From positions 1 to 57,897 of the forward strand of contig CAJYRQ010000045.1 in the NCBI GenBank assembly GCA_913777465.1: a stretch of 57,897 bases of DNA, given 5' to 3'. Source of the stretch: an uncultured Chryseobacterium sp. (GTDB lineage Bacteria > Bacteroidota > Bacteroidia > Flavobacteriales > Weeksellaceae). How positions within the stretch are numbered: position 1 is the stretch's first letter; each line of letters opens with the position of its first letter. The notes below the pieces were generated by a model. That model was not told where the DNA came from, searched no databases, and saw only the letters and a list, made by a program, of their open reading frames with translations. The position numbers and the translations under genes are program-made. This document shows, one piece after another, positions 45,957 through 56,967 of this stretch.

Positions 45957-46775
45957 TCAATTGTCGGCAAATTCTTCCGTAGCATTAGCACCACCGTAGG
46001 TATCAATAATGTGTGCGGTAGCTTCTTTCAACGTTTTTCCATTTTCAGGATGTTGTCCGTAATTGGTAAAGAATTCTACATGATTATCGCTCTTATCATA
46101 CCAAACCTTCCCTGCTGCATTTTCAATTGTCAGCGTGTCCGGCCTCGTAATTCTTTTCTGATAGACGAATTTGTTCGGCTCCATCGGTACTACCTCAATT
46201 TGAGGATTGATATAACTGCTGTCGCTGGCGATATACCGGTCTTTATCCCAATACATATAGGGTTTTTCAGTTGCAGGCACTCCCCAAAATGATGCAAATC
46301 CCAAAGGTGCTTTTTTGTTACTGGAAAAAACAACACCTCCAGAAACCAAAAGCAATACAAAAGTCATTTCCACAATACCTAATCCGTTCTTCTTTATAAA
46401 ATCTGGTAATAAAACAGTTGGTGACACTGTAATAATTATCTGTTGAATTTTTTCAGAGATTTCCTTAAAACTTAGTGAAAAGGTTTTTGAATCATCATTT
46501 TCCAGGTTTACTCTGTCACAAAAATCTTCAAAACTATCATATCCGATATATTTACTTAGATAAAGAAGTGTAAGATCATCAATATTATAATCTGTATTTT
46601 CTTCTACTAATTTTGTATAATATCTAGAGTATGATCTTTCATCTTTTTTAAAATTATACCGATCTTCAATAAGTGAGCTCAAATAAGATGAAATAGAACT
46701 TTTGTTTCCACGCGGAAGCTCATTTTTTGCTGTTTCAAATACAGTTTTTACTAAAAATCTTTTCTTCTCATACAT
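45957..46775 (-). CDS. Single-pass membrane protein with N-terminal cytoplasmic domain, member of the local regulon
   Basis: 272 aa. N-terminal soluble domain about 1-110 (KKRFLVKTVFETAKNELPRG, YLSKYIGYDSFEDFCDRVNL), helical and not recognised by me, then a transmembrane helix near 130-150 (GIVEMTFVLLLVSGGVVFSS) and a C-terminal extracytoplasmic domain (VPATEKPYMYWDKDRYIASD, EFFTNYGQHPENGKTLKEAT). The N-terminal half is visibly A+T-rich and the C-terminal half is not. Divergent from the histidine-kinase gene. Its promoter carries the same palindrome as three downstream promoters, so it belongs functionally with them. It may be a membrane-bound sensor or effector; that is inference. Confidence 0.7.
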   Translation of the reverse strand: MYEKKRFLVKTVFETAKNELPRGNKSSISSYLSSLIEDRYNFKKDERSYSRYYTKLVEENTDYNIDDLTLLYLSKYIGYDSFEDFCDRVNLENDDSKTFSLSFKEISEKIQQIIITVSPTVLLPDFIKKNGLGIVEMTFVLLLVSGGVVFSSNKKAPLGFASFWGVPATEKPYMYWDKDRYIASDSSYINPQIEVVPMEPNKFVYQKRITRPDTLTIENAAGKVWYDKSDNHVEFFTNYGQHPENGKTLKEATAHIIDTYGGANATEEFADN

Positions 46776-46803: not shown

Positions 46804-46848
46804 CCAAATTAGACAAATTTTTGACAAGTAAATTGCGGTTTACCGTAA
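46804..46848 (-). promoter_or_regulatory. Regulon operator and promoter, copy 4 (before 272-aa gene)
   Basis: On the minus strand TTACG-GTAAAC-CGCAA (46833-46848), then exactly 21 nt, then TAATTTGG (46804-46811), a 7/8 match to TAnnTTTG. The box ends 28 nt before the ATG. Half-site 2 has one mismatch to CGTAA. Same layout as 49901-49945, 50713-50757 and 55253-55297. Confidence 0.6.
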
Positions 46849-46973
46849 AAATCAAACATTTATAAGCTGTCCATCTGTCTATCTCCTGTCCGTAGATTCA
46901 GCTATTTATCGCAGATATTTGTAAAAGAAAATCAGGGGATTAAAAAAATAAAAACAAAACCTGATTTCAAAAA

Positions 46974-47082
46974 CTACCAGATAAAACGGAAGAAAATATC
47001 CGGGTTGGGAAGCAGATGTTTCTCTTCCGTTTTAGAAGGTTTACTTCCCAAAAAATTTAAGAAGCGCTTCAAAATTTTTCAC
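46974..47082 (-). pseudogene. Possible small gene split by a one-base shift
   Basis: On the minus strand GTG at 47082 opens MKNFEALLKFFGK and then stops. The +1 frame carries on from the same T6 run as LGSKPSKTEEKHLLPNP and DIFFRFIW before a stop at 46974. Removing one T would give a single ~35-residue peptide. A hairpin with CCTGATTT/AAATCAGG lies after the stop. This may be a frameshifted small gene, programmed slippage or chance. The same DNA also holds two interlocking inverted repeats (AAACGGAAGA at 46984 with TCTTCCGTTT at 47023; TTGGGAAG at 47005 with CTTCCCAA at 47044). Confidence 0.3.
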
Positions 47083-47152
47083 GTGTAATCCGATCTGCGA
47101 TCTGTTTCGCAGGGAAGAACACGAATGCTTTAACAATTAAATTTTTTGAACA

Positions 47153-47368
47153 ATGATCGAATTCATTTTGATGCTATTAGGATTAGCATTCGGACATAAT
47201 AATGCCAATACACAAACATGCAACAATGATAATAATGACGGAACAGTAACCGTTCAAACCACCAATACAGGAACGGGATCCAACCCAGGCACAGGAATAG
47301 ATCCGGGAACCGGAGGTTCAGGCGGAGATACGGGAGGTGAAACAATACCACTACCTCCTAAAAAATAG
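47153..47368 (+). CDS. Small Gly/Thr-rich protein with N-terminal hydrophobic segment
   Basis: 71 aa. N-terminal hydrophobic stretch MIEFILMLLGLAFGHNNANT could be a signal anchor; the rest is Asn/Thr then Gly-rich (PGTGIDPGTGGSGGDTGGET) and ends PLPPKK. No family is recognised. A 377-nt gap precedes it (46776-47152), holding the divergent operator and the possible small minus-strand gene. A terminator lies downstream at 47446. Low complexity makes expression uncertain. Confidence 0.5.
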   Translation: MIEFILMLLGLAFGHNNANTQTCNNDNNDGTVTVQTTNTGTGSNPGTGIDPGTGGSGGDTGGETIPLPPKK

Positions 47369-47445
47369 ATTTTTAAAATGACAACATAATTAAATTATGA
47401 AGTTATAAAAACTTTCTTCATATAGATGTTGTATAAATTTTAATC

Positions 47446-47484
47446 AGAGACTGTTTCATAAATTTGAAATAGTCTCTTTTTATT
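47446..47484 (+). terminator. Terminator before histidine kinase gene
   Basis: AGAGACTGTTTC/GAAATAGTCTCT, 12 bp with one G-T pair and 8-nt loop, followed by T5. It isolates the kinase from upstream transcription. Confidence 0.85.
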
Positions 47485-47542
47485 TCTTAAAAATCACTTT
47501 ACTTTGAAAATACTTTTATATTTTTATCAAAATCTAATTTCT

Positions 47543-49192
47543 ATGAAAAATAATTTCCTTTTCTGCATATTCCTATGTACAATTATAATAATTTCATGTA
47601 GTAGACACGAAAAATCTGATTTAGACTCAACTAATATTGAATATGAAAAGGCCCATAAATTTGATTCTCTAAATATCTATGACAGTGCATATGTACATTA
47701 TGATAAAGCATTAAATATTTTTGAAAAAAGTAAAAATAATTTTGGACGTGCTAAGTGTCTGTCAAATATGGCTAAAATACTTGATACTAAAGGAAATTAT
47801 TTTAAAGGTATTGATTTCTCTCTTAAAGCAAAAAATCTGTATGACACAAAAGATGAAAATCAATATTATCATATATCAGACAACTACAATAATTTAGGCA
47901 ATATCCATAATAATCTTAAAAAATATAACGAAGCAATTGATTATTATAATTCTGCAGAAAAATATGCTACAGATGAGGATTCTAAAATAATATTCATTGC
48001 TAATATTGCAAAAATATATAAGGAAGAAAAAAAATATGTGCAAGCAATAAAAATTTATGATAGTATTCTACCAAAAGTGAAAAACTCTAACGCATTTGCA
48101 TATGCAAGAATTCTTTCTAACCTTGCAAATATTAAATGGCTTCATAATAAAAATTATGATATAGAACCTCTTCAATTAAAAGCTCTTGATATTCAAAAGC
48201 AAAATAATGATAAAATGGGACAAAATGCTAGCTATTCACATTTATCAGATTATTTTAAAAATAAAGATTTAGAAAAAGCATTAATTTACGCTAAAAAGAT
48301 GTACGAAATCGCAAAAGATGTACAAAGTACTGATGACGAATTAGAAGCCTTACAAAAAATTATATCATTTGATCCTAAAAATTATCAAGGAAATTTCAAC
48401 CAATACATTAAATTAAGAGATAGTATACAAGAAGCAAGAAATACTGACAATGATAAATTTGCAACCATTGTTTATGGAGTGCAAGAAGCTAAAATTAAAA
48501 ATGCAGAAAATGAAACTCAGATATTATTTAGAAACGTTGGCATCGGAGCATTAATATGCATATTGATTATCGGCATTTTCTGGTACAAAAGAAGAAAGAA
48601 AAGACTCCAGCAGGAAAAAGAACTCGAAGTCAAAAACACCCAGCTTAAAATGTCGAAACGCGTTCATGACGTGGTGGCCAACGGGATTTACCAGGTAATG
48701 GCCAAGATTGAAAACCAGGAAGATTTTGACCGGAATAAGGCACTGGACGAACTGGAATTCGTTTATGAAAAATCCAGGGATCTTTCTTACGAGAAAGCCG
48801 GTGAGAAAAAAGAATTCAGCCAGGAAATTTCAGAGCTGATTGCCGGATTTAATAACACCACGGTGAAAACATTTACCGCAGGAAATGATCCTTCGGTCTG
48901 GGAAAAAGTTTCTCCGGCGGTAAAAGAAGAAGTCTACCAGATGATCCGCGAACTGATGGTGAACATGAAGAAGCACAGCCAGGCCAGCCATGTTGCCGTT
49001 AAGTTTGAAAAGACTGACGGGACGGTTGAAATCCAATATAAAGACAACGGCGTAGGAATCTCCGGGGACCTTATTTATAAAAATGGCTTACGGAATACGG
49101 CTTCCCGTATTGAAGCCATCGGTGGGACGATTACTTTTGACACAAAAATTGAAAAAGGGCTGAAAGTGAACCTTTCCTTCCCTTCTTCGTAA
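47543..49192 (+). CDS. TPR-containing sensor histidine kinase
   Basis: 549 aa from MKNNFLFCIFLCTIIIISCS (ATG at 47543); the upstream TTG lies in an A+T-rich leader. The start is a lipoprotein-like signal (IIISC), so the sensor lies outside the cytoplasm. Residues about 25-320 are Tyr/Asn-rich TPR-like helical repeats (YNNLGNIHNNLKKYNEAIDY). TM helix about 331-348 (VGIGALICILIIGIFWY). The phospho-His is near residue 375 (SKRVHDVVANGIYQVMAKIE), and the HATPase domain follows (RELMVNMKKHSQASHVAVKF, DNGVGISG). It is 10 nt before the first response regulator, its likely partner. The sensor half is far more A+T-rich than the kinase half. Confidence 0.88.
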   Translation: MKNNFLFCIFLCTIIIISCSRHEKSDLDSTNIEYEKAHKFDSLNIYDSAYVHYDKALNIFEKSKNNFGRAKCLSNMAKILDTKGNYFKGIDFSLKAKNLYDTKDENQYYHISDNYNNLGNIHNNLKKYNEAIDYYNSAEKYATDEDSKIIFIANIAKIYKEEKKYVQAIKIYDSILPKVKNSNAFAYARILSNLANIKWLHNKNYDIEPLQLKALDIQKQNNDKMGQNASYSHLSDYFKNKDLEKALIYAKKMYEIAKDVQSTDDELEALQKIISFDPKNYQGNFNQYIKLRDSIQEARNTDNDKFATIVYGVQEAKIKNAENETQILFRNVGIGALICILIIGIFWYKRRKKRLQQEKELEVKNTQLKMSKRVHDVVANGIYQVMAKIENQEDFDRNKALDELEFVYEKSRDLSYEKAGEKKEFSQEISELIAGFNNTTVKTFTAGNDPSVWEKVSPAVKEEVYQMIRELMVNMKKHSQASHVAVKFEKTDGTVEIQYKDNGVGISGDLIYKNGLRNTASRIEAIGGTITFDTKIEKGLKVNLSFPSS

Positions 49193-49202
49193 CCGTTTTG
49201 TT

Positions 49203-49865
49203 ATGTTTAAAAAAGTATTAATTGTTGAAGACCAGGAAGTTGCCAACCTGGGCATCACGCAGACCCTGGAAGGATTATCCATTTCCCATTTCGAATTTGT
49301 AACCTATTGTGACGAAGCCTTGCAGCGGCTGAAGAAGGCAGCTGCAGAAAAAGAACCGTACGACCTGCTGATTGCCGACCTCTCTTTTGAAAAAGACCAC
49401 ATCCGCCAAAATCTGAAAAATGGTCAGGAGCTGATCCGGGAAGCGAAAAATCTCCAGCCTGAGCTGAAAGTGGTGGTGTTCTCCGTAGAAAAACGGGCGA
49501 AGGTCATCGACGATCTTTATAAAATCTACGGCATCGACGGGTTTGTAAGCAAAGCCAGAAATGACGGGAAAGAACTCAGAAATACAATCGGAAAAGTTTT
49601 TGAGGGAGAAATTGTGATGTCACAGGAAATTTTGAATGCCATCCGCAATGTTCCTTTCACATTGAATGCGTACGACCTCAAATTGCTGGAACTGCTGGCC
49701 AAAGGATCTAAACAAAACGAGATTCAGGCGTACCTGAAAGACCACCAGATGCAGCCGCACAGCATCCGCTCCATCGAAAAGCGTTTGAATGAACTCCGTG
49801 ACAGCTTCGGGGCCAAAAACAATGTAGAGATGATTGTGATCTGTAAAGATATCGGACTGATCTGA
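49203..49865 (+). CDS. Response regulator 1 with C-terminal HTH-like domain
   Basis: 220 aa. Receiver domain 1-125: acidic Glu9/Asp10, phospho-acceptor Asp59 (DLLIADLSFEKD), Ser/Thr in VVFSVEKRAK, and Lys in FVSKARNDGK. The C-terminal part (about 145-220, LNAYDLKLLELLAKGSKQNE, EKRLNELRDSFGAKNNVEMI) resembles a LuxR-type helix-turn-helix effector. It lies 10 nt after the kinase, in the same transcript. It is similar along its whole length to the next gene (about half identical by eye). Confidence 0.88.
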   Translation: MFKKVLIVEDQEVANLGITQTLEGLSISHFEFVTYCDEALQRLKKAAAEKEPYDLLIADLSFEKDHIRQNLKNGQELIREAKNLQPELKVVVFSVEKRAKVIDDLYKIYGIDGFVSKARNDGKELRNTIGKVFEGEIVMSQEILNAIRNVPFTLNAYDLKLLELLAKGSKQNEIQAYLKDHQMQPHSIRSIEKRLNELRDSFGAKNNVEMIVICKDIGLI

Positions 49866-49900
49866 TGTAAAAATACCGGATTGCCTCTTTTTTTGCCGTT

Positions 49901-49945
49901 TTACGTGAACCCGTAATGACGGAATGATAAATGCTTTTACTTTTG
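49901..49945 (+). promoter_or_regulatory. Regulon operator and promoter, copy 1 (before response regulator 2)
   Basis: TTACG-TGAACC-CGTAA (49901-49916), then 21 nt, then TACTTTTG (49938-49945). A T-rich run and GCCG precede the palindrome, as in copies 2 and 3. No TTG at the -33 position, so the promoter probably needs an activator bound at the palindrome. The box ends 38 nt before the ATG. Confidence 0.75.
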
Positions 49946-49983
49946 GGGTCTTAAACCTATGTTTCTAATTAAACCGTATAACC

Positions 49984-50649
49984 ATGTTCAAAAAAATTTT
50001 AATTGCCGAAGATCACGAAAGCATCAATATTTCCGTCCAGAAAACCCTGGAGGATCTGAATATTCCAAAGGTAGACTATGTGTACTACTGCGATGATGCG
50101 ATCGGAAAAATCCGGAAAGCCCTGCGGGAAGAACAGCCGTACGACCTGCTGATCACCGACCTTTACTATGAAGAAGACCACCGTACCCAGGAGCTTAAAG
50201 ACGGAAGAGAGCTTATTGAAAAAGCAAAAGAGCTGCAGCCCGATCTGAAAGTGATTGTCTTTTCCGCCGAACGCAAGACCGGCGTCATCGAAAATCTTTT
50301 TTCCGATTACCACATCAACGGCTATGTGGGGAAAGCCAGAAACGATTCCAAAGACTTAAAAAAAGCCATCGCATCGGTTTATATCGGTGAGGAACATCTT
50401 TCCTTCGATCTTAAACAGGAAATGAAGAAATTCAACAATTATGAATTTTCCACTTACGATATTGTAATTGTTTCCCTGCTCTCCAAAGGCATCCTGCAAA
50501 AGAATATTCCGGCCCACCTTGAAGAAAAAAGCATCCGGCCCTCCAGCCTCAGCAGTGTCGAAAAAAGACTCAACAGCCTGAAAGAAGACCTCAGCGTCAA
50601 CAGCAATGAACAGCTGGTCGCCTTCTGCAAAGACCTCGGGATCATCTGA
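49984..50649 (+). CDS. Response regulator 2, paralogue of response regulator 1
   Basis: 221 aa. Same plan as the previous gene: Glu9/Asp10, phospho-acceptor Asp59 (DLLITDLYYEED), VIVFSAERKTG and YVGKARNDSKD, then an HTH-like C-terminus (TYDIVIVSLLSKGILQKNIP, SVEKRLNSLKEDLSVNSNEQ). Unlike the first regulator it has its own promoter with the shared palindrome, so it is a target of the regulon and perhaps amplifies it. Terminator 50671-50698 follows. Confidence 0.88.
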   Translation: MFKKILIAEDHESINISVQKTLEDLNIPKVDYVYYCDDAIGKIRKALREEQPYDLLITDLYYEEDHRTQELKDGRELIEKAKELQPDLKVIVFSAERKTGVIENLFSDYHINGYVGKARNDSKDLKKAIASVYIGEEHLSFDLKQEMKKFNNYEFSTYDIVIVSLLSKGILQKNIPAHLEEKSIRPSSLSSVEKRLNSLKEDLSVNSNEQLVAFCKDLGII

Positions 50650-50670
50650 AACCCATTTATTCGCTTACAG

Positions 50671-50698
50671 CCTTTCAAATTTTTTGAAAGGTTTTTTT
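50671..50698 (+). terminator. Terminator after response regulator 2
   Basis: CCTTTCAAA/TTTGAAAGG followed by T7. It directly precedes the next regulon promoter. Confidence 0.8.
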
Positions 50699-50712
50699 AC
50701 TTTTTGCCCGTT

Positions 50713-50757
50713 TTACGGAAACCCGTAAAAATTACTCATGAAAGGGTGATACTTTTG
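50713..50757 (+). promoter_or_regulatory. Regulon operator and promoter, copy 2 (before AAA+ operon)
   Basis: TTACG-GAAACC-CGTAA (50713-50728), 21 nt, TACTTTTG (50750-50757). The T-rich run and GCCCG precede the palindrome. The box ends 28 nt before the ATG at 50786. Confidence 0.78.
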
Positions 50758-50785
50758 GAAGGTAAAACAACCTGAAACTTAGATT

Positions 50786-51235
50786 ATGGCAAGAATACTT
50801 TTTCAAAATCAATCTCTGAACTCTGCTTCCGAAAGCAGGCAGACCTCCTTAAAAACATTCACTGACAGGGATATTCTTAAAAAACGCTCCCAGCAATACA
50901 TGAATCTTATTAAAGGTATTGATACCGAACTGCTAACAGAGACGCAAGGAAGAGAAGTATTAATGGAGAAGATACAGGATGAATTCGGAACTGCCGAGCT
51001 GGCCAATCTCCCTTTGGGAATTCTGGCAAAATGTTTTTTAGGTCATCCTCATGAGGTTCATACCTTAGACCTCAGCGCTAACCAGATTATTAAACATTAT
51101 AAAATCGAAGAATCTTTACCCGATCATTTCGAAAAAGCAAGGACACTCGCCAGACACAATGCCTACGCTTTTGTAGAAGTATTTAAAGACAAACTTATCC
51201 TCATCCGGGAAGACGGAACAGCAGCCAAACTATAA
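50786..51235 (+). CDS. Hypothetical protein, first gene of AAA+ operon
   Basis: 149 aa. No family recognised. Mostly helical and charged in the N-terminal half (SRQTSLKTFTDRDILKKRSQ, ELLTETQGREVLMEKIQDEF), then LANLPLGILAKCFLGHPHEV and a compact C-terminal segment (HNAYAFVEVFKDKLILIRED) with beta-strand character. No signal peptide, so cytoplasmic. 19 nt before the next gene; expressed from the regulon promoter at 50713-50757. Confidence 0.65.
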   Translation: MARILFQNQSLNSASESRQTSLKTFTDRDILKKRSQQYMNLIKGIDTELLTETQGREVLMEKIQDEFGTAELANLPLGILAKCFLGHPHEVHTLDLSANQIIKHYKIEESLPDHFEKARTLARHNAYAFVEVFKDKLILIREDGTAAKL

Positions 51236-51254
51236 ACCTGAAAACTCAAATAAA

Positions 51255-52958
51255 ATGTCACAAAAAGTAATTTCATACGCAGATCTTACAAGAATTAATT
51301 CTGCTTTAAGTTCGATCAAGGCAGATATGCAGAATGTAAATACAGAACTGGGAAGCCTGAATGTAAAACATGACCATATTAAAAATGATCTATTAACCCT
51401 TGTTGTTGCCTTTAACGATTTTGTAGAATCTGATATTAAGCATAAATGCCTTCAGCTTGCAGAAACCCGGCAGGGAAACCTGAAACAGGATCTTCAGATT
51501 AAGTTCGGCTATTACGCTGAAGTCCGCAGAATGGCTACCGGAATTCTCCAGGGCGTAGATACGGGGATTGTTGGCGAAGATACATTACGGCACACTACCG
51601 AAGAAGTGATGATAAAAGCGCCCAACTATTGGCTCGCCCCGGCATTGGTCGTTCTGGCCTCGTGGATCAGGGATGATAAAAATACATCTGAAAAAGCGCT
51701 TAATGAAAGTCTTAAGAGAGACGATTATAAGACCTCTCTTTTTTTCATGCTGATCATGAGAAGATTGGAGCGGAACGATTCCTGTCTGCAGTGGATGAAC
51801 CGATATTTTCTGCATCAGAATCCTCATAACCTCGACCGGGAATTTATCGTCATTCTTGAAGCCATTACTACAGGTATTTTCCAGCCTGCTTCCCATCAAC
51901 TGATGATGAAAAATGTTAAAAGCTGGATCCAGCAACTGACCCAGACCGATAATTATATTGATAAACAAAAAGCACAGTGGACTGATTTCTTTAAAATCCA
52001 GGGATCCCGATCATCAAGTCCTTATCCTTTACTAGAAGAGTTTGCTACCAACTGGGCAGATCTGGAAGCATCTGTAACCCAGGCCAGATCTCATACACCG
52101 CTAGACAGGCATTTTAAAACAATTTTCGAAACCTCTACCGATTATTCTAAAACCATTAAAATCCAGCTTGATGAAATTCTATCGTTGCTGGTAACCAATT
52201 TTGATGATGAAGAACTTCCGTTGCAAAATGAAGTAAGGCTTAACCAACTGATTATCCAGAAAGAAGGTGATAAAAAAGCGGCTCAGGCTTTAATGAATAA
52301 AGAAAAATACATGTTTGATGAGAAAGTGGATTTTCTCCAGATGCTGACCAATGCAGCTTTTGATCCTGAACTTTCAGGAGCTACTAAGGTTACGCAGGCT
52401 CTTGCAGTTTCGATCAGTCAGCCCTGGATCGTAGAAGCCCATGATACATTTACGGCAAACTACCGGATTAATGTACAAGAAAAGGTCGAATTAACGATTG
52501 ATGGCTATAAAACCTCAACAACTGACGGAACGGATGAAACGGAACAATTGCAGAAACACGATAAATATTGGGCAGACTTCCTAGAAAAAGAACTGAATAA
52601 ACTGACTTTTCCAACTGCTCTAATCATTATTGGATGCATTATTTCTCTTTTTAGTTTAGCCATCTTTAAATTCGGTGCTGTTGGAATTATCGGAGCAATC
52701 ATTGGTGTGATCATCATTTTCAGTGCAATAAACAGCTATAAACAATCCAGGAAAAAAACAATAGAAAACATTACCGAAAGGAAAAAGAAATCTAAAGAAG
52801 TCCTGCGTGGATGCATTGCCGAAACAGTAGATTACAGAAAAGAATTTGCTTCGGAAGATGCGAAAGCTGAGATCTTCAGACAAACCCTGTTATCGATTAC
52901 GCCTGAAGACTTTTCCGGATTATCCCGGGATACGAGAAATATCTTACAAACCTCTTAA
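51255..52958 (+). CDS. Large protein with C-terminal transmembrane hairpin, AAA+ operon
   Basis: 567 aa. The N-terminal ~450 residues are helical and soluble (ADMQNVNTELGSLNVKHDHI coiled coil, WLAPALVVLASWIRDDKNTS, MLIMRRLERNDSCLQWMNRY). Two closely spaced transmembrane helices follow at about 450-497 (ALIIIGCIISLFSLAIFKFG, GIIGAIIGVIIIFSAI), and then a ~70-residue charged tail. This is the only membrane protein of the operon, so it may anchor the AAA+ ATPase at the membrane. I do not recognise the family with confidence. It is 9 nt before the 57-aa gene. Confidence 0.7.
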   Translation: MSQKVISYADLTRINSALSSIKADMQNVNTELGSLNVKHDHIKNDLLTLVVAFNDFVESDIKHKCLQLAETRQGNLKQDLQIKFGYYAEVRRMATGILQGVDTGIVGEDTLRHTTEEVMIKAPNYWLAPALVVLASWIRDDKNTSEKALNESLKRDDYKTSLFFMLIMRRLERNDSCLQWMNRYFLHQNPHNLDREFIVILEAITTGIFQPASHQLMMKNVKSWIQQLTQTDNYIDKQKAQWTDFFKIQGSRSSSPYPLLEEFATNWADLEASVTQARSHTPLDRHFKTIFETSTDYSKTIKIQLDEILSLLVTNFDDEELPLQNEVRLNQLIIQKEGDKKAAQALMNKEKYMFDEKVDFLQMLTNAAFDPELSGATKVTQALAVSISQPWIVEAHDTFTANYRINVQEKVELTIDGYKTSTTDGTDETEQLQKHDKYWADFLEKELNKLTFPTALIIIGCIISLFSLAIFKFGAVGIIGAIIGVIIIFSAINSYKQSRKKTIENITERKKKSKEVLRGCIAETVDYRKEFASEDAKAEIFRQTLLSITPEDFSGLSRDTRNILQTS

Positions 52959-52967
52959 ACCATAATC

Positions 52968-53141
52968 ATGAAAGACCCTAAAAATAATTCTGAAGAAAGT
53001 AAGAAGCAAATACCTAATCGACAAGAAAGACCGAATCTTTTTCAAGGACGTACGGAAGGAGAAAAAGGAAACGCCAAATTTCCCGACTGGAATATCATTC
53101 CACCCAATCAGATCATTAATCCCAGAATCAAAAGATCATGA
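52968..53141 (+). CDS. 57-aa hypothetical protein, AAA+ operon
   Basis: 57 aa, starts at the ATG at 52968 and ends with TGA at 53141, overlapping the next ATG (ATGA at 53138). Very hydrophilic (MKDPKNNSEESKKQIPNRQE) with a short Pro/Ile C-terminus (PDWNIIPPNQIINPRIKRS). Translational coupling to both neighbours supports that it is real. Function unknown; perhaps a linker or adaptor peptide. Confidence 0.6.
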   Translation: MKDPKNNSEESKKQIPNRQERPNLFQGRTEGEKGNAKFPDWNIIPPNQIINPRIKRS

Positions 53142-53659
53142 AAAAACCGGTTACTTATTCGGATTGGGTTGAAATCTTTGAACGTTTTGCCAGTGGTGAT
53201 GATACTGTTTTGGAAAACATGAATTCCGGAAATTTTGATCTGGATGCAGGAACGGCACAACGCTTTTATATAAAGGCGGAAGAAGCTTACAAAATGCGCA
53301 AAAAACTCTGGCTGGAAAGGTTTCAGAGATCTTTTGAAACACAGAATATAAAATCGGCGGATGATTTTGGAATGATCCTGTTGATTGGAAAAAAAAATCT
53401 GCTTCCGCTCTCAGGATTTTCACAGGCTAAAGGTCTACCGGAAGATTTAAAAACAGTATTTACAAAAGATCTGCAGGACTTTGCCAATGAAATTAAAAAG
53501 TCATTAAAGGATAATATTATGAAAGCCGGTAATGAAAAAGAAAAAATGCTTCTCACAATCAATTCATTTGGGCTTCCGGCAGATATCAGAATAACAACTG
53601 ATGAAGGCGCTGATGACAGAGAACAAAACATCCCAACAAAAAGAAAAATAATCTTTTAA
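53138..53659 (+). CDS. Hypothetical helical protein, AAA+ operon
   Basis: 173 aa. Overlaps the 57-aa gene by 4 nt and ends 2 nt before the AAA+ gene. Predicted largely helical (VTYSDWVEIFERFASGDDTV, AGTAQRFYIKAEEAYKMRKK, DLQDFANEIKKSLKDNIMKA), soluble, with a charged tail (EGADDREQNIPTKRKIIF). No motif or family recognised. Tight spacing suggests a partner of the ATPase. Confidence 0.65.
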   Translation: MKKPVTYSDWVEIFERFASGDDTVLENMNSGNFDLDAGTAQRFYIKAEEAYKMRKKLWLERFQRSFETQNIKSADDFGMILLIGKKNLLPLSGFSQAKGLPEDLKTVFTKDLQDFANEIKKSLKDNIMKAGNEKEKMLLTINSFGLPADIRITTDEGADDREQNIPTKRKIIF

Positions 53660-53661
53660 TC

Positions 53662-55209
53662 ATGTCTGATAAAATTGAATTCAAGAATTCCCTGCTCAGG
53701 ATGTTCCGGGCAAGAATTCCTTTTATTTCCATAAGAAGTATAGAAAGAGCAAGAGTACTGGAAATCATACAGGAACTGGCAGAAGAAATTAACATCCCGA
53801 TGTATGTCCACAGCCTTTCGCACGGAATGATGGATATCAAAACGAGAAAAACTGTAAATGACGACCGTTCTGTTGTTGGCGGGATTGATTTTGCCGTTCA
53901 AAACATTTCTCAAAGGCAAAATCTTACTTTTATTTTTACAGAGGTAAGCGATATTGAAGATGACAATATCGTTTCAAGGCATATTTACGATTTTGTGGTG
54001 CAGGCTATCGAACGGGGAGGAAGTGTGTGTATTATTTCTACAAAAAGCGTTTGGTCACAGCTTCAGAGATTAGGAATGACATTAACCTTAGATCCTCCTA
54101 ATGAAGATGAAATGTTTGAGATTGTAAAAGACTGTGTCCTTCCTTATCAAAATTCATTTCCTATCGAGTGGGATGAAAAAGATTTTAAAATGGCCGCCGC
54201 TATTCTGGCTAATATGACGAAAATAGAAGCTGAAAACGTTTTGGCTACACAAATGGCAAAAGGCTCCCTCATTAAAGAGGATATTAAACTTCTTACCCAG
54301 GAAAAAGATAAATTATTCAGCAACATTTCGGGACTTGAAAAAGTAAAGGTTGATCCTGCTATGCTCTCCGTAGGCGGATTAAATGGTCTGCAACAGTGGC
54401 TGGAAAGCCAAAGGCAACTTTTAACCGCAGATTTAAAAGCAAGAAAGCTGCGGCCGCCGAAAGGTGTTCTGTTAGTAGGAGTTCCTGGATGCGGGAAATC
54501 TCTTTCTGCAAAATTTATTGCTGCAACCTGGAATCTGCCTTTATACAGGCTGGATCTTGCATCAATTCAGGGAATGTATGTAGGACAGTCTGAAAACCGA
54601 TTAAAAGAAGCATTTGAATCGGCAGACCACGCATCGCCGTGTATTTTATGGATTGATGAAATTGAAAAAGGACTCGCTGCCAATGCAAACGATTCTTCCG
54701 GAGTTACCACAAGAATGATCGGTCAGTTTTTATTCTGGCTCCAGGAAAGCACGGAAAAGGTTTTTGTAGTCGCTACGGCCAATGATGTCACCAAATTGCC
54801 GCCGGAATTGCTCCGTAAAGGAAGATTCGATGAATTATTTTTTGTTGATTTACCTGAAGAGCAGGAACGGGAAGATATTATTTATCTTTATATCAAGAAA
54901 GGACTTCTTTCTCCACCATCTGCGGAAACTTTTAAAAAACTGGTGACTTTATCATCCGGATTCGCGGGTTCCGACCTTGAAGGAGCTATAAGAGATGTGG
55001 CTATTCAGGCGGTCATTAACGGAAATGAAGCCGTTAATGATGAGCTGTATGAAACATGTTTCCGGAATATTGTTCCTTTAAGCAAAACAAGCCCTGAAAA
55101 AATTGAAGCCATCAGACACTGGGGCAAAGAAAGAGCCCTTCCTGCTTCCGGATTGTCCTGGAATACGGTAAATGATACTATAACTGCAAGACGTTCTATC
55201 ATCATTTAA
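53662..55209 (+). CDS. Ycf46-type AAA+ ATPase
   Basis: 515 aa. The N-terminal ~230 residues form a degenerate P-loop-like domain (FRARIPFISIRSIERARVLE, FIFTEVSDIEDDNIVSRHIY) as in Ycf46 proteins, and the C-terminal half is a classic AAA+ module: Walker A GVPGCGKS (273-280), Walker B CILWIDEIEK (327-336), sensor-1 Asn374 in VVATAND, and Arg finger candidates in LLRKGRFDELFFVD (Arg385/388). Ycf46-like ATPases are conserved in cyanobacteria and scattered bacteria; roles are poorly defined. It is the last gene of a five-gene operon under the regulon promoter. Confidence 0.88.
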   Translation: MSDKIEFKNSLLRMFRARIPFISIRSIERARVLEIIQELAEEINIPMYVHSLSHGMMDIKTRKTVNDDRSVVGGIDFAVQNISQRQNLTFIFTEVSDIEDDNIVSRHIYDFVVQAIERGGSVCIISTKSVWSQLQRLGMTLTLDPPNEDEMFEIVKDCVLPYQNSFPIEWDEKDFKMAAAILANMTKIEAENVLATQMAKGSLIKEDIKLLTQEKDKLFSNISGLEKVKVDPAMLSVGGLNGLQQWLESQRQLLTADLKARKLRPPKGVLLVGVPGCGKSLSAKFIAATWNLPLYRLDLASIQGMYVGQSENRLKEAFESADHASPCILWIDEIEKGLAANANDSSGVTTRMIGQFLFWLQESTEKVFVVATANDVTKLPPELLRKGRFDELFFVDLPEEQEREDIIYLYIKKGLLSPPSAETFKKLVTLSSGFAGSDLEGAIRDVAIQAVINGNEAVNDELYETCFRNIVPLSKTSPEKIEAIRHWGKERALPASGLSWNTVNDTITARRSIII

Positions 55210-55252
55210 AAATTTAATCAAATACTTGCAATTTTTAATTTTTTTGCCGGAT

Positions 55253-55297
55253 TTACGGGATCCCGTAAAATTTATTTATCAAATGATTCTACTTTTG
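55253..55297 (+). promoter_or_regulatory. Regulon operator and promoter, copy 3 (before nuclease operon)
   Basis: TTACG-GGATCC-CGTAA (55253-55268), the most symmetrical copy (TTTACGGGATCCCGTAAA), then 21 nt, TACTTTTG (55290-55297). T-rich run and GCCGG precede it. The box ends 21 nt before the ATG at 55319. Confidence 0.8.
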
Positions 55298-55318: not shown

Positions 55319-55537
55319 ATGAAACATTATTACCTTAATAAAAACCAGCAGTCCAACGGAGATTATGAAGTCCACGAAAGCTCATGTAGCTTTTTGCCCT
55401 CTGTAGAAAATAGAATTTACTTAGGATACTTTGCAACTTGTCAAGAAGCTGTAAATGAAGCAAAAAGAGTACGTTCAGCTGATAAGCACAATATTAATGG
55501 ATGCTATTACTGTTCTAAATCATGTCATACCACTTAA
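55319..55537 (+). CDS. Small Cys/His-rich (probable zinc-binding) protein
   Basis: 72 aa. Pattern: YEVHESSCSFLP, YFATCQEAVNEAKR and at the end GCYYCSKSCHTT, i.e. H-x3-C, C, then CxxCxxxCH. This resembles Ada-like/nuclease-associated metal-binding modules (VHxxxC...FxxxxxAxxxG...CxxC). No signal peptide, cytoplasmic. It is the first gene of the nuclease operon, 16 nt before the YegP-like gene. It may bind DNA or metal for the neighbouring nuclease. Confidence 0.7.
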   Translation: MKHYYLNKNQQSNGDYEVHESSCSFLPSVENRIYLGYFATCQEAVNEAKRVRSADKHNINGCYYCSKSCHTT

Positions 55538-55553
55538 ATAAAAATCAATAACC

Positions 55554-55907
55554 ATGGGAAAATTTGTCATTACCCGAAGAATAAACCAAGAGTATCAGTT
55601 TAATCTGAAAGCCGGAAACGGCGAAATTATTTTAACCAGTGAGGGCTATATTCAGAAAGGATCCTGCCACAAAGGCATTGAATCAGTAAGAGTTAATTCA
55701 CAGGATGATTCCAGGTACGATAGAAGAACAGCCGTTAACGGGAAAGTTTATTTTGTTTTAAAAGCAAGGAACGGCGAAATTATCGGCAAAAGCCAGCTGT
55801 ACAGTTCGAAGGCGGGCATGGAAAGCGGAATTGCTTCCGTAAAGTACAATGCGTCCACCGCAGAAATCGTTGATGAAACCTTAAAAACAAGTGAATATGG
55901 ATCTTAA
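55554..55907 (+). CDS. Tandem YegP (DUF1508) protein
   Basis: 117 aa. Two YegP repeats: about 5-55 (YQFNLKAGNGEIILTSEGYI, GIESVRVNSQ) and 60-108 (VYFVLKARNGEIIGKSQLYS, GIASVKYN). The E. coli YegP has the same tandem layout; its function is not established, though expression is often stress-related. It overlaps the next gene by 11 nt, so the two are translated together. Confidence 0.88.
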   Translation: MGKFVITRRINQEYQFNLKAGNGEIILTSEGYIQKGSCHKGIESVRVNSQDDSRYDRRTAVNGKVYFVLKARNGEIIGKSQLYSSKAGMESGIASVKYNASTAEIVDETLKTSEYGS

Positions 55908-56967
55908 GATTAAACTTGAACAACTGCATCAGAGAGTTGTGGGACTAAAAGACCAGATCGGAACGGAAGAAGCGACCAAAAACGCATTCGTATTGCCTTT
56001 CATCCAGATTTTGGGTTATGATATTTTCAATCCTACAGAAGTTGTTCCGGAGCATGTTTGTGATATCGGAACTAAGAAAGGAGAAAAAGTGGATTACGTA
56101 ATCCGGCATAATGACGCGCCTATCTTTATCATCGAATGCAAGCACTGGAAAGAAAGCGCTGATGCCCACAATTCCCAGCTTCACCGGTATTACCATGTTT
56201 CGAAGACCCGGTTCGGTGTACTGACCAACGGAATTGTCTATAACTTCTACACCGATCTGGAAAAACCGAATATTATGGATGAAAAGCCGTTCTTCACCAT
56301 TAATATCGAAGACATTAAAGACAGCTCCATTAAGATCCTGGAGAAATTTACCAAGAAAGATTACAATCTTGAAGAAATCCTGGATTCTGCAGAAGCCCTG
56401 AAATACATCAAGGCAATCCGTAAAGAATTTGAAAAGGAAATAGAAAATCCTTCGGATGAGATGGTCAAGCTCCTTGTGAGCCGCTTCTTTGAAAAATCAA
56501 TTACGGCAAACCGGATGGTAACTTTTAAGGAGTACACGAAAAAAGCCCTTACAACATCGATTAATGAGTCCATCAGTTTCAGGCTGAAGTCTGCTTTAAG
56601 CATCAATGAACAGATCGAGAAACAGGACGATGAGGTGAAATCCCAACAGCCGGTTGATGAGAATAATGAATCAAAAATTGTAACTACTGAAGAGGAACTG
56701 GAAGGTTTCCAGATTGTAAAAGCGATTTTACGGGAGAAAATTCCTTCCACAAGAATTGCTTACCGCGATACCTTGTCTTATTTTGGAATTCTATTGGATG
56801 ACAACAACCGAAAACCACTCTGCAGGCTTCACTTTAATACAAATAACAAATACCTGGAAACTTTCCATAACGGAAAAGACGCAGGCGAAAAAATCCTGCT
56901 GGGCAATCTGGATGAAATTTATAATTACAAAGACCAACTACAGAAGACATTAGAAAATTATTCATAA
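55897..56967 (+). CDS. Stand-alone HsdR-N-type restriction endonuclease-like protein
   Basis: 356 aa from the ATG at 55897 (MDLKIKLEQLHQRVVGLKDQ); GTG at 55891 is possible. The N-terminal ~160 residues match the type I restriction R-subunit N-terminal nuclease fold: TEEATKNAFVLPFIQILGYD (23-42) and the catalytic pair Asp67 and Glu80-Cys-Lys82 (KVDYVIRHND, IFIIECKHWK), i.e. PD-(D/E)xK. The helicase/translocase motifs of HsdR are absent, and no HsdM or HsdS is in the window. A C-terminal module (IRIVKAILREKIPSTR-like, about 275-350) follows. It may cleave or recognise DNA or nucleotides on its own. Tightly coupled to YegP. Confidence 0.85.
   Translation: MDLKIKLEQLHQRVVGLKDQIGTEEATKNAFVLPFIQILGYDIFNPTEVVPEHVCDIGTKKGEKVDYVIRHNDAPIFIIECKHWKESADAHNSQLHRYYHVSKTRFGVLTNGIVYNFYTDLEKPNIMDEKPFFTINIEDIKDSSIKILEKFTKKDYNLEEILDSAEALKYIKAIRKEFEKEIENPSDEMVKLLVSRFFEKSITANRMVTFKEYTKKALTTSINESISFRLKSALSINEQIEKQDDEVKSQQPVDENNESKIVTTEEELEGFQIVKAILREKIPSTRIAYRDTLSYFGILLDDNNRKPLCRLHFNTNNKYLETFHNGKDAGEKILLGNLDEIYNYKDQLQKTLENYS

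Follow-up and report, generated by a model that had tools for sequence, protein, structure and literature searches.

A shared promoter module suggests a two-component immune regulon in Bacteroidota

We examined a window of 57,897 nucleotides (nt) from an uncultured Chryseobacterium sp., the entire contig CAJYRQ010000045.1 of a 4.40-Mb genome, and in it a 45-bp promoter module, a palindrome standing at a fixed distance upstream of a TAnnTTTG -7 box, that recurs around the genes for a histidine kinase and two response regulators. Our analysis suggests that one switch controls much of this bacterium's immunity.

The locus and its promoter module

The histidine kinase (47504-49192, plus strand) joins TPR repeats to an HATPase_c domain (Pfam TPR_12, 1e-14; HATPase_c, 6e-8), and its N-terminus looks lipobox-like by eye. 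Response regulator 1 (49203-49865, plus strand; Pfam Response_reg, 3e-9) carries a receiver and a LuxR/GerE-like C-terminal domain, and response regulator 2 (49984-50649, plus strand; Response_reg, 4e-9) is its paralogue, 44% identical to it. The closest named relatives with the same regulator are Chryseobacterium, in which regulator 1 is up to 90% identical. Behind regulator 2 lies an AAA+ operon on the plus strand, of which a 149-amino acid (aa) and a 567-aa gene form the first part (50786-52958), followed by genes for a 173-aa protein and a 515-aa AAA+ ATPase (53138-55209; Pfam AAA, 3e-31). A further plus-strand operon encodes a 72-aa protein (55319-55537) and two conserved candidate targets, a DUF1508 protein (55554-55907; Pfam, 2e-40) and an HSDR_N-type nuclease-like protein (55891-56967; Pfam HSDR_N, 1e-15). 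On the minus strand, a 272-aa protein (45957-46775) has no Pfam match. When ten proteins of the locus were scanned with PADLOC, the 515-aa ATPase resembled IetA (1e-28) of a described defense system; besides this and a weak TPR match of the kinase there was no match, the 149-aa, 567-aa, 173-aa, 72-aa, nuclease-like and 272-aa proteins included.

A preliminary description of this DNA had placed exact copies of a palindrome, TTACG-N6-CGTAA, at 49901, 50713 and 55253 and a one-mismatch copy at 46833-46848 on the minus strand, each 21 nt from its box. These positions and the identical spacing hold for all four sites, and the palindrome is better described as the 16-letter TTACGG-N4-CCGTAA. The boxes of the exact plus-strand sites begin at 49938, 50750 and 55290, and the fourth box, TAATTTGG, matches TAnnTTTG at 7 of 8 positions, as had been reported. 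With the 45-mer TTACGGN4CCGTAA-N21-TAnnTTTG as the pattern and up to 2 mismatches allowed, the module occurs at five places in the window (46804 on the minus strand; 49095, 49901, 50713 and 55253 on the plus strand), and first-order Markov controls of window length contained no copy in 20 of 20 cases.

Each site stands before a gene of the locus. The minus-strand site (46804-46848; palindrome TTACGGTAAACCGCAA, N21, box TAATTTGG) precedes the 272-aa gene, its presumed target, and the plus-strand site at 49901-49945 (TTACGTGAACCCGTAA, N21, TACTTTTG) precedes response regulator 2. Two exact plus-strand sites, 50713-50757 and 55253-55297, precede the 149-aa gene of the AAA+ operon and the operon of the 72-aa, DUF1508 and nuclease-like proteins. 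The motif had been said to occur nowhere else in the window, which overlooked a fifth copy at 49095-49139 on the plus strand (ATACGGCTTCCCGTAT, N21, TACTTTTG). Its palindrome (49095-49110) lies within the 3' end of the kinase gene, and its box (49132-49139) lies 63 nt upstream of the start of response regulator 1. Judged by its sequence, this copy is probably a true fifth site, and we grade it no higher because the same stretch encodes conserved kinase residues, so that coding constraint may explain its conservation. Across 15 loci (the window and 14 related loci) the best match to this site has 2 to 4 mismatches. Given that the sequence doubles as conserved kinase codons, we do not claim it as proof that regulator 1 controls itself.

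Two smaller features accompany the sites. The box of the minus-strand site sits in TGTCTAATTTGGACA (46804-46820), which is itself nearly palindromic, is repeated in a number of the related loci and is perhaps a second operator. A GCCG/GCCCG element following a T-tract directly precedes the palindrome at 49885-49900, 50690-50712 and 55240-55252, perhaps as an extra half-site.

The arrangement is largely kept in the 14 related loci. All of these orthologous loci contain at least one palindrome with a box at 21 nt, with 2 or fewer mismatches; the order kinase then regulator 1 is kept in every one, and regulator 2 comes next in 13. The copies before regulator 2 (0-1 mismatch) and after it are each kept in 13 of the 14, the exception being L079 (loci carry our labels L, genomes G and genera g), a stretch without regulator 2 whose sole copy has 2 mismatches and precedes a homologue of the 272-aa gene. 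The site behind regulator 2 leads into DUF1508 and the nuclease in 11 of the 13 loci, and into DUF1508 also in L217, which belongs to a different family. The AAA+ operon, with its 149-aa and 567-aa genes, follows regulator 2 only in the window and in L066, and L071 shows neither arrangement behind its regulator-2 site. In L094, L095 and L097, 68-aa proteins that resemble the 72-aa protein by eye open the same operon. Homologues of the 272-aa protein are found in 12 of the 14 loci and a minus-strand site with a 7-of-8 box at the equivalent place in 9; the stretches of L069 and L071 end short of that position. The AAA+ operon (50786-55209) is flanked by a module copy on each side and is possibly an unrecognized defense cassette.

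Sites across genomes and the operons behind them

The preliminary description had proposed a local regulon, a reading we reject because the site is genome-wide. At most 2 mismatches from the 45-mer, 24 strand-places match in this genome, versus 6 for a backward pattern, and the bare palindrome with at most 1 mismatch occurs at 40 places versus 10 for its control. The site is also present in other genera and in other families; many copies lie at a distance from the regulator, and many precede defense genes. The expected linkage to promoters is borne out. Of the palindromes in this genome that have a box at 20-22 nt, all but one (18 of 19) fall outside long reading frames, whereas 17 of 19 one-mismatch copies lacking a box fall within one. 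Hits scattered without regard to promoters, the outcome that would have spoken against the preliminary reading, did not occur.

The spacing is rigid. When any of 30 gaps from 8 to 37 nt was allowed, all 35 exact palindromes with a box found in 20 genomes had a gap of 20-22 nt (3 at 20, 30 at 21 and 2 at 22). Among 160 unique sites, at least 98% have A or T at the two central bases, and T predominates from 8 to 12 nt upstream. At the -33 slot TTG shows no enrichment (between 0 and 8 of these sites have it at any given position), in keeping with the earlier proposal that the palindrome occupies the place of the -33 element. The sites combine a TAnnTTTG -7 box and fixed spacing with no TTG enrichment at -33; the putative operator would be centered near -42. 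In this genome (L032) and in G061 (L114), an RmuC-like gene begins 4 nt after a module copy whose gap is 22 nt, and look-alike sites with a 22-nt gap occur in other genomes of the genus (G115, G129 and G141); this core gene of DNA maintenance may belong stably to the regulon.

Which protein might read the site? We scored the exact module against the presence of the response regulator in three overlapping draws of genomes, from the family, the order and the phylum. Among 148 genomes of the family draw, 75 carry the module and 89 the regulator (E at most 1e-20); all 75 carry both, and none has the module alone. Module and regulator occur in the same 12 of 33 genera, and even within genus g34 nine genomes have both, 11 have neither and none is discordant. 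Permutation within genera matched the observed co-occurrence in 0 of 20000 trials. The order draw of 246 genomes gave 52 with the module, 60 with the regulator (E at most 1e-15), 52 with both and none with the module alone; the phylum draw of 296 genomes gave 25, 31 (profile, E at most 1e-20), 25 and none. One of these last 25 genomes lies outside the order, and its single exact site is about 2.2 Mb from the regulator in contig coordinates. Combined, the draws cover about 618 genomes, in which all 101 with the module have a regulator homologue and none of the 494 without the regulator has the module.

This co-occurrence does not arise merely from the site being part of the regulator locus, because 69 of the 124 sites in the order draw are either over 10 kb away from every regulator gene or placed on a different contig. 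Such distal sites occur in 34 of 60 regulator-positive versus 0 of 186 regulator-negative genomes of that draw, and 44 of the 124 sites start within 1 kb of a regulator gene start. Either regulator alone seems sufficient, because genomes with a single regulator-1-like protein and genomes with a single regulator-2-like protein, as sorted by identity to regulator 1 alone, both carry the module. Two other kinds of regulator were tried in the family draw and rejected: LexA_DNA_bind, for an SOS regulon, occurs in 2 of the 148 genomes against 75 with the module, and WYL regulators, found in 109 of the 148, are lacking in 9 of the 75 genomes with the module, and 43 genomes have WYL but no module.

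We then compared the operons behind the sites with controls. The starting loci combined part of those of this genome with loci of the family draw, 60 regions of which were chosen by eye among the sites listed, away from regulators and not duplicate-looking, before their genes were seen; together they yielded 79 unique sites, and a called gene follows 71 of these. With 11 loci of the regulator locus itself excluded and near-duplicates merged (90 proteins to 83), the target set consists of the 83 proteins encoded by the first two genes in each of 56 operons; 37 of these proteins were scanned singly and 46 as a group. This genome accounts for nine of the 56 operons, some of these nine standing behind sites with 1-2 mismatches; one operon (L082) lies directly behind a regulator gene, and the other 55 are distal. 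In this genome the targets of L008, L013 and L018 had no family-library scan, and L010 and L062 were scanned but stand outside the 56. For the controls, 40 stretches were taken at shifted positions in the same genomes; 37 of them contained an operon, which gave 58 proteins.

At E 1e-5 the target set matched 415 PADLOC models versus 27 for the control set; operons are the fairer unit, because many PADLOC models describe the same protein. A match at E 1e-15 or better was found in 21 of 56 target operons versus 1 of 37 control operons (Fisher p 4e-5), or in 19 of 56 when two probable housekeeping proteins are left out (p 2e-4). The sole control match, mad3, may itself be housekeeping. Eighteen of the 21 operons were identified individually. 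This genome supplies four of them, with a type I methyltransferase at L006, a type I restriction enzyme at L020, Cas9 at L055 and, at L009, an Orf5/SspE/type IV-like protein that we take to be GmrSD. Other genomes contribute a type III methyltransferase (L118), a type II methyltransferase with a DpdB-like protein (L120), DUF4297 (L124), PDC-M65A (L128), HamB (L129), Cas9 (L143), SIR2 with HerA (L152), a LeoA-like protein (L160), PDC-S19 (L161), a CBASS cyclase with HORMA (L162), HamA with HamB (L163), bSEFIR with a helicase (L164), a SIR2/ThsA-like protein (L166) and GajA with GajB (L167). The other three, SduA and the probably housekeeping RmuC and helicase, come from the group results and were assigned to their operons by inference. 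Outside the 21, this genome adds a SIR2/ThsA-like second gene (L007) and weak matches to PDC-S02 (L035) and PLD/DrmC (L004). The operons behind the sites are enriched for predicted anti-phage systems, with Cas9 (twice), restriction-modification types I-III, CBASS, Gabija, Hachiman (twice) and SIR2-HerA among them.

The regulator, its proposed action and alternatives

A profile search and the predicted fold point to the class of the regulator. The acidic pocket of the receiver, the phospho-acceptor aspartate and the lysine (E9, D10, D59 and K117) do not vary among the 29 sequences compared, and a profile search of solved structures returned spr1814, VraR, RcsB and DesR. An AlphaFold2 model of regulator 1 (predicted local distance difference test score 88, predicted template modeling score 0.75) shows a receiver together with a C-terminal domain of four helices, predicted at 156-166, 171-180, 188-202 and 207-216. 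Foldseek's top full-length matches are RcsB, spr1814, VraR, LiaR and DesR, at root-mean-square deviations of 5-13 because the domains pack differently. Pfam reported no GerE for the C-terminal domain, only a weak DUF5932, so the helix-turn-helix is degenerate by sequence alone. On this modeled fold the protein is a NarL/RcsB-type response regulator with a predicted GerE/LuxR helix-turn-helix. The preliminary description had named a LuxR-type regulator as the likely binder, and the co-occurrence (101 of 101 versus 0 of 494) and the matches to RcsB, VraR and DesR favor this; its two-component reading of the site likewise gains from co-occurrence, fold and profile together. The candidate operator is two-fold symmetric in sequence, as a dimer-bound site would be.

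We consider it probable that the TPR histidine kinase and one or two NarL/RcsB-type regulators directly control a dispersed, immune-rich regulon. The phosphorylated regulator would bind as a dimer, with one monomer on each half-site, centered near -42 where a -33 element would otherwise lie, and would activate in the class-II manner; NarL-type regulators at a symmetric operator near -42 act as class-II activators. Through the site before regulator 2, and probably also the one before regulator 1, the system would control itself. Defense cassettes that carry or acquire the operator would become plugged into the host switch. Candidate signals are phage attachment, envelope damage and the debris of lysed neighbors, because the sensor looks envelope-facing. 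The wider proposal, that this is a dedicated Bacteroidota immune regulon in which a two-component system is the master switch and the 45-bp module a portable plug acquired separately by unrelated defense cassettes, so that many defenses are raised together, we hold to be reasonably likely.

Several observations weigh against this proposal or limit the evidence for it. No PADLOC match at 1e-15 was found for 35 of the 56 operons, and the first gene of many of these encodes a small secreted protein or an unknown one; the targets also include RmuC, an H+-pyrophosphatase and a DEAD helicase. For both reasons the regulon cannot be called purely immune. The group scan (46 proteins, some of them small) was the only one for 36 of the 83 target proteins, group-scan matches were tied to three proteins by inference, and 8 of the 79 sites have no called gene downstream. 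The co-occurrence tracks clades, so that genomes are not independent evidence; "distal" sites include those on other contigs of draft assemblies, which are not necessarily far away; and 14 of the 89 regulator-positive genomes in the family draw lack an exact module, exact copies alone having been counted.

Might the regulon instead be a general response to DNA damage or envelope stress, with defense genes as one part only? Such a response would fit the presence among the targets of RmuC, helicases, small secreted proteins and a nuclease (L010) that by eye resembles SbcD. However, PADLOC matches are commoner in the target operons than in the controls; Cas9 and Hachiman (two of each), CBASS, Gabija and three types of restriction-modification are not classic damage genes; a LexA domain is nearly absent from the family; and we think a general stress response rather unlikely. 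We also judge it unlikely that the response regulator acts on the operator as a repressor or mixed regulator that keeps costly defense genes off. Some defense systems are described as being kept silent by WYL regulators, a palindrome near a promoter is compatible with repression, and sequence alone does not give the sign; but repressor sites usually vary in position, and a spacing confined to 20-22 nt at all 35 sites, with no TTG enrichment at -33, fits an activator that replaces the -33 contact.

Binding by a different transcription factor inherited with the locus appears very unlikely. Co-occurrence cannot name the protein, and DUF1508 and the nuclease travel with the locus too; yet the two regulators are the sole proteins of response-regulator/helix-turn-helix architecture among the ten scanned, the proximity of 44 order-draw sites to regulator gene starts speaks against another factor, and LexA and WYL, the two other factor families covered, both fail the co-occurrence test. 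Chance or a coding artefact, to which the fifth window site and some viral-contig sites in coding DNA might point, has a negligible probability for the set of sites as a whole, with backward-pattern controls at 0 in every genome of the three draws and the Markov controls empty. Our probabilities for these readings do not sum to one because the repressor and stress alternatives share the regulator part of the activator reading.

Known systems and viral contigs

Two-component control has precedents of several kinds. RcsB is the closest solved fold to the regulator, with the same NarL-type receiver and LuxR helix-turn-helix, and the Rcs phosphorelay has been linked to CRISPR control; identity in the Foldseek alignments is, however, 19-20%, no hybrid phosphorelay proteins are seen at this locus, and the DNA site of RcsB differs from the module palindrome. 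Gac/Rsm of Pseudomonas works largely post-transcriptionally through small RNAs and CsrA-type repressors, whereas here each target carries its own operator, and phylum, sensor and regulator differ. As in the system proposed here, one two-component pathway is described as governing many unrelated, species-variable factors of defense against phages and antagonism; the authors present Gac/Rsm as a defense coordinator and speculate that counterparts in other phyla await discovery (PMC11888443).

Other systems touch CRISPR or restriction genes. In Marinomonas, PpoS/PpoR, of the BarA/UvrY type, is reported to control two CRISPR systems and phage resistance, again a histidine kinase and response regulator over CRISPR-Cas; unlike the present case it is a BarA/UvrY-Csr cascade, and its abstract mentions no shared operator before many types of system (PMC8523701). 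Closer in phylogeny, a two-component system of the related bacterium Riemerella, RAYM_RS09735/09740, affects cas genes: its deletion is reported to alter expression of cas9, cas1 and cas2, with 805 genes changed, but it is named as PhoP/PhoR-like, and LuxR, TPR and TACGG are not mentioned in the available text (PMC5399024). Response_reg_2/HEF_HK pairs, two-component-like proteins, are described as adjoining restriction-modification genes; that link is one of neighborhood rather than of an operator, and neither family (PF19192, PF19191) is matched by proteins of the window (PMC8011034). The WYL regulators CapW and BrxR, too, are transcription factors that control defense systems, but in the published accounts they are encoded with one system, whereas here one distant regulator appears to serve many (PMC9122588, PMC9122589).

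Our literature search, for which most papers in subscription journals were outside scope, returned no description of the motif or of an operator-sharing immune regulon in the phylum. Two-component control of defense genes is already known. The regulon proposed here would be a sequence-defined candidate in this phylum for the joint control of many defense systems, with sensor, regulator and operator in hand, and if it is real a host could raise many defenses at once. The operator could also serve as bait, since unknown operons that carry it are candidate new defense genes independent of any location in a defense island.

The module extends to viral contigs in IMG/VR, where it occurs in 90 stretches (L231-L320) versus 7 for a reversed-arm control. 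Examination of 80 of the 90 (L231-L310) gave 73 unique sites, behind which 45 genes were chosen by eye and scanned; 6 of the 45 proteins match the phage repressor family phrog_4. Some of the viral-contig palindromes overlap the coding start of an opposite gene, and in L242 and L245 the palindrome reads, by eye, as LRxAVK in that gene, which weakens the case for the repressor genes as clear targets. Some of the module-bearing viral contigs are presumably prophages of these hosts.

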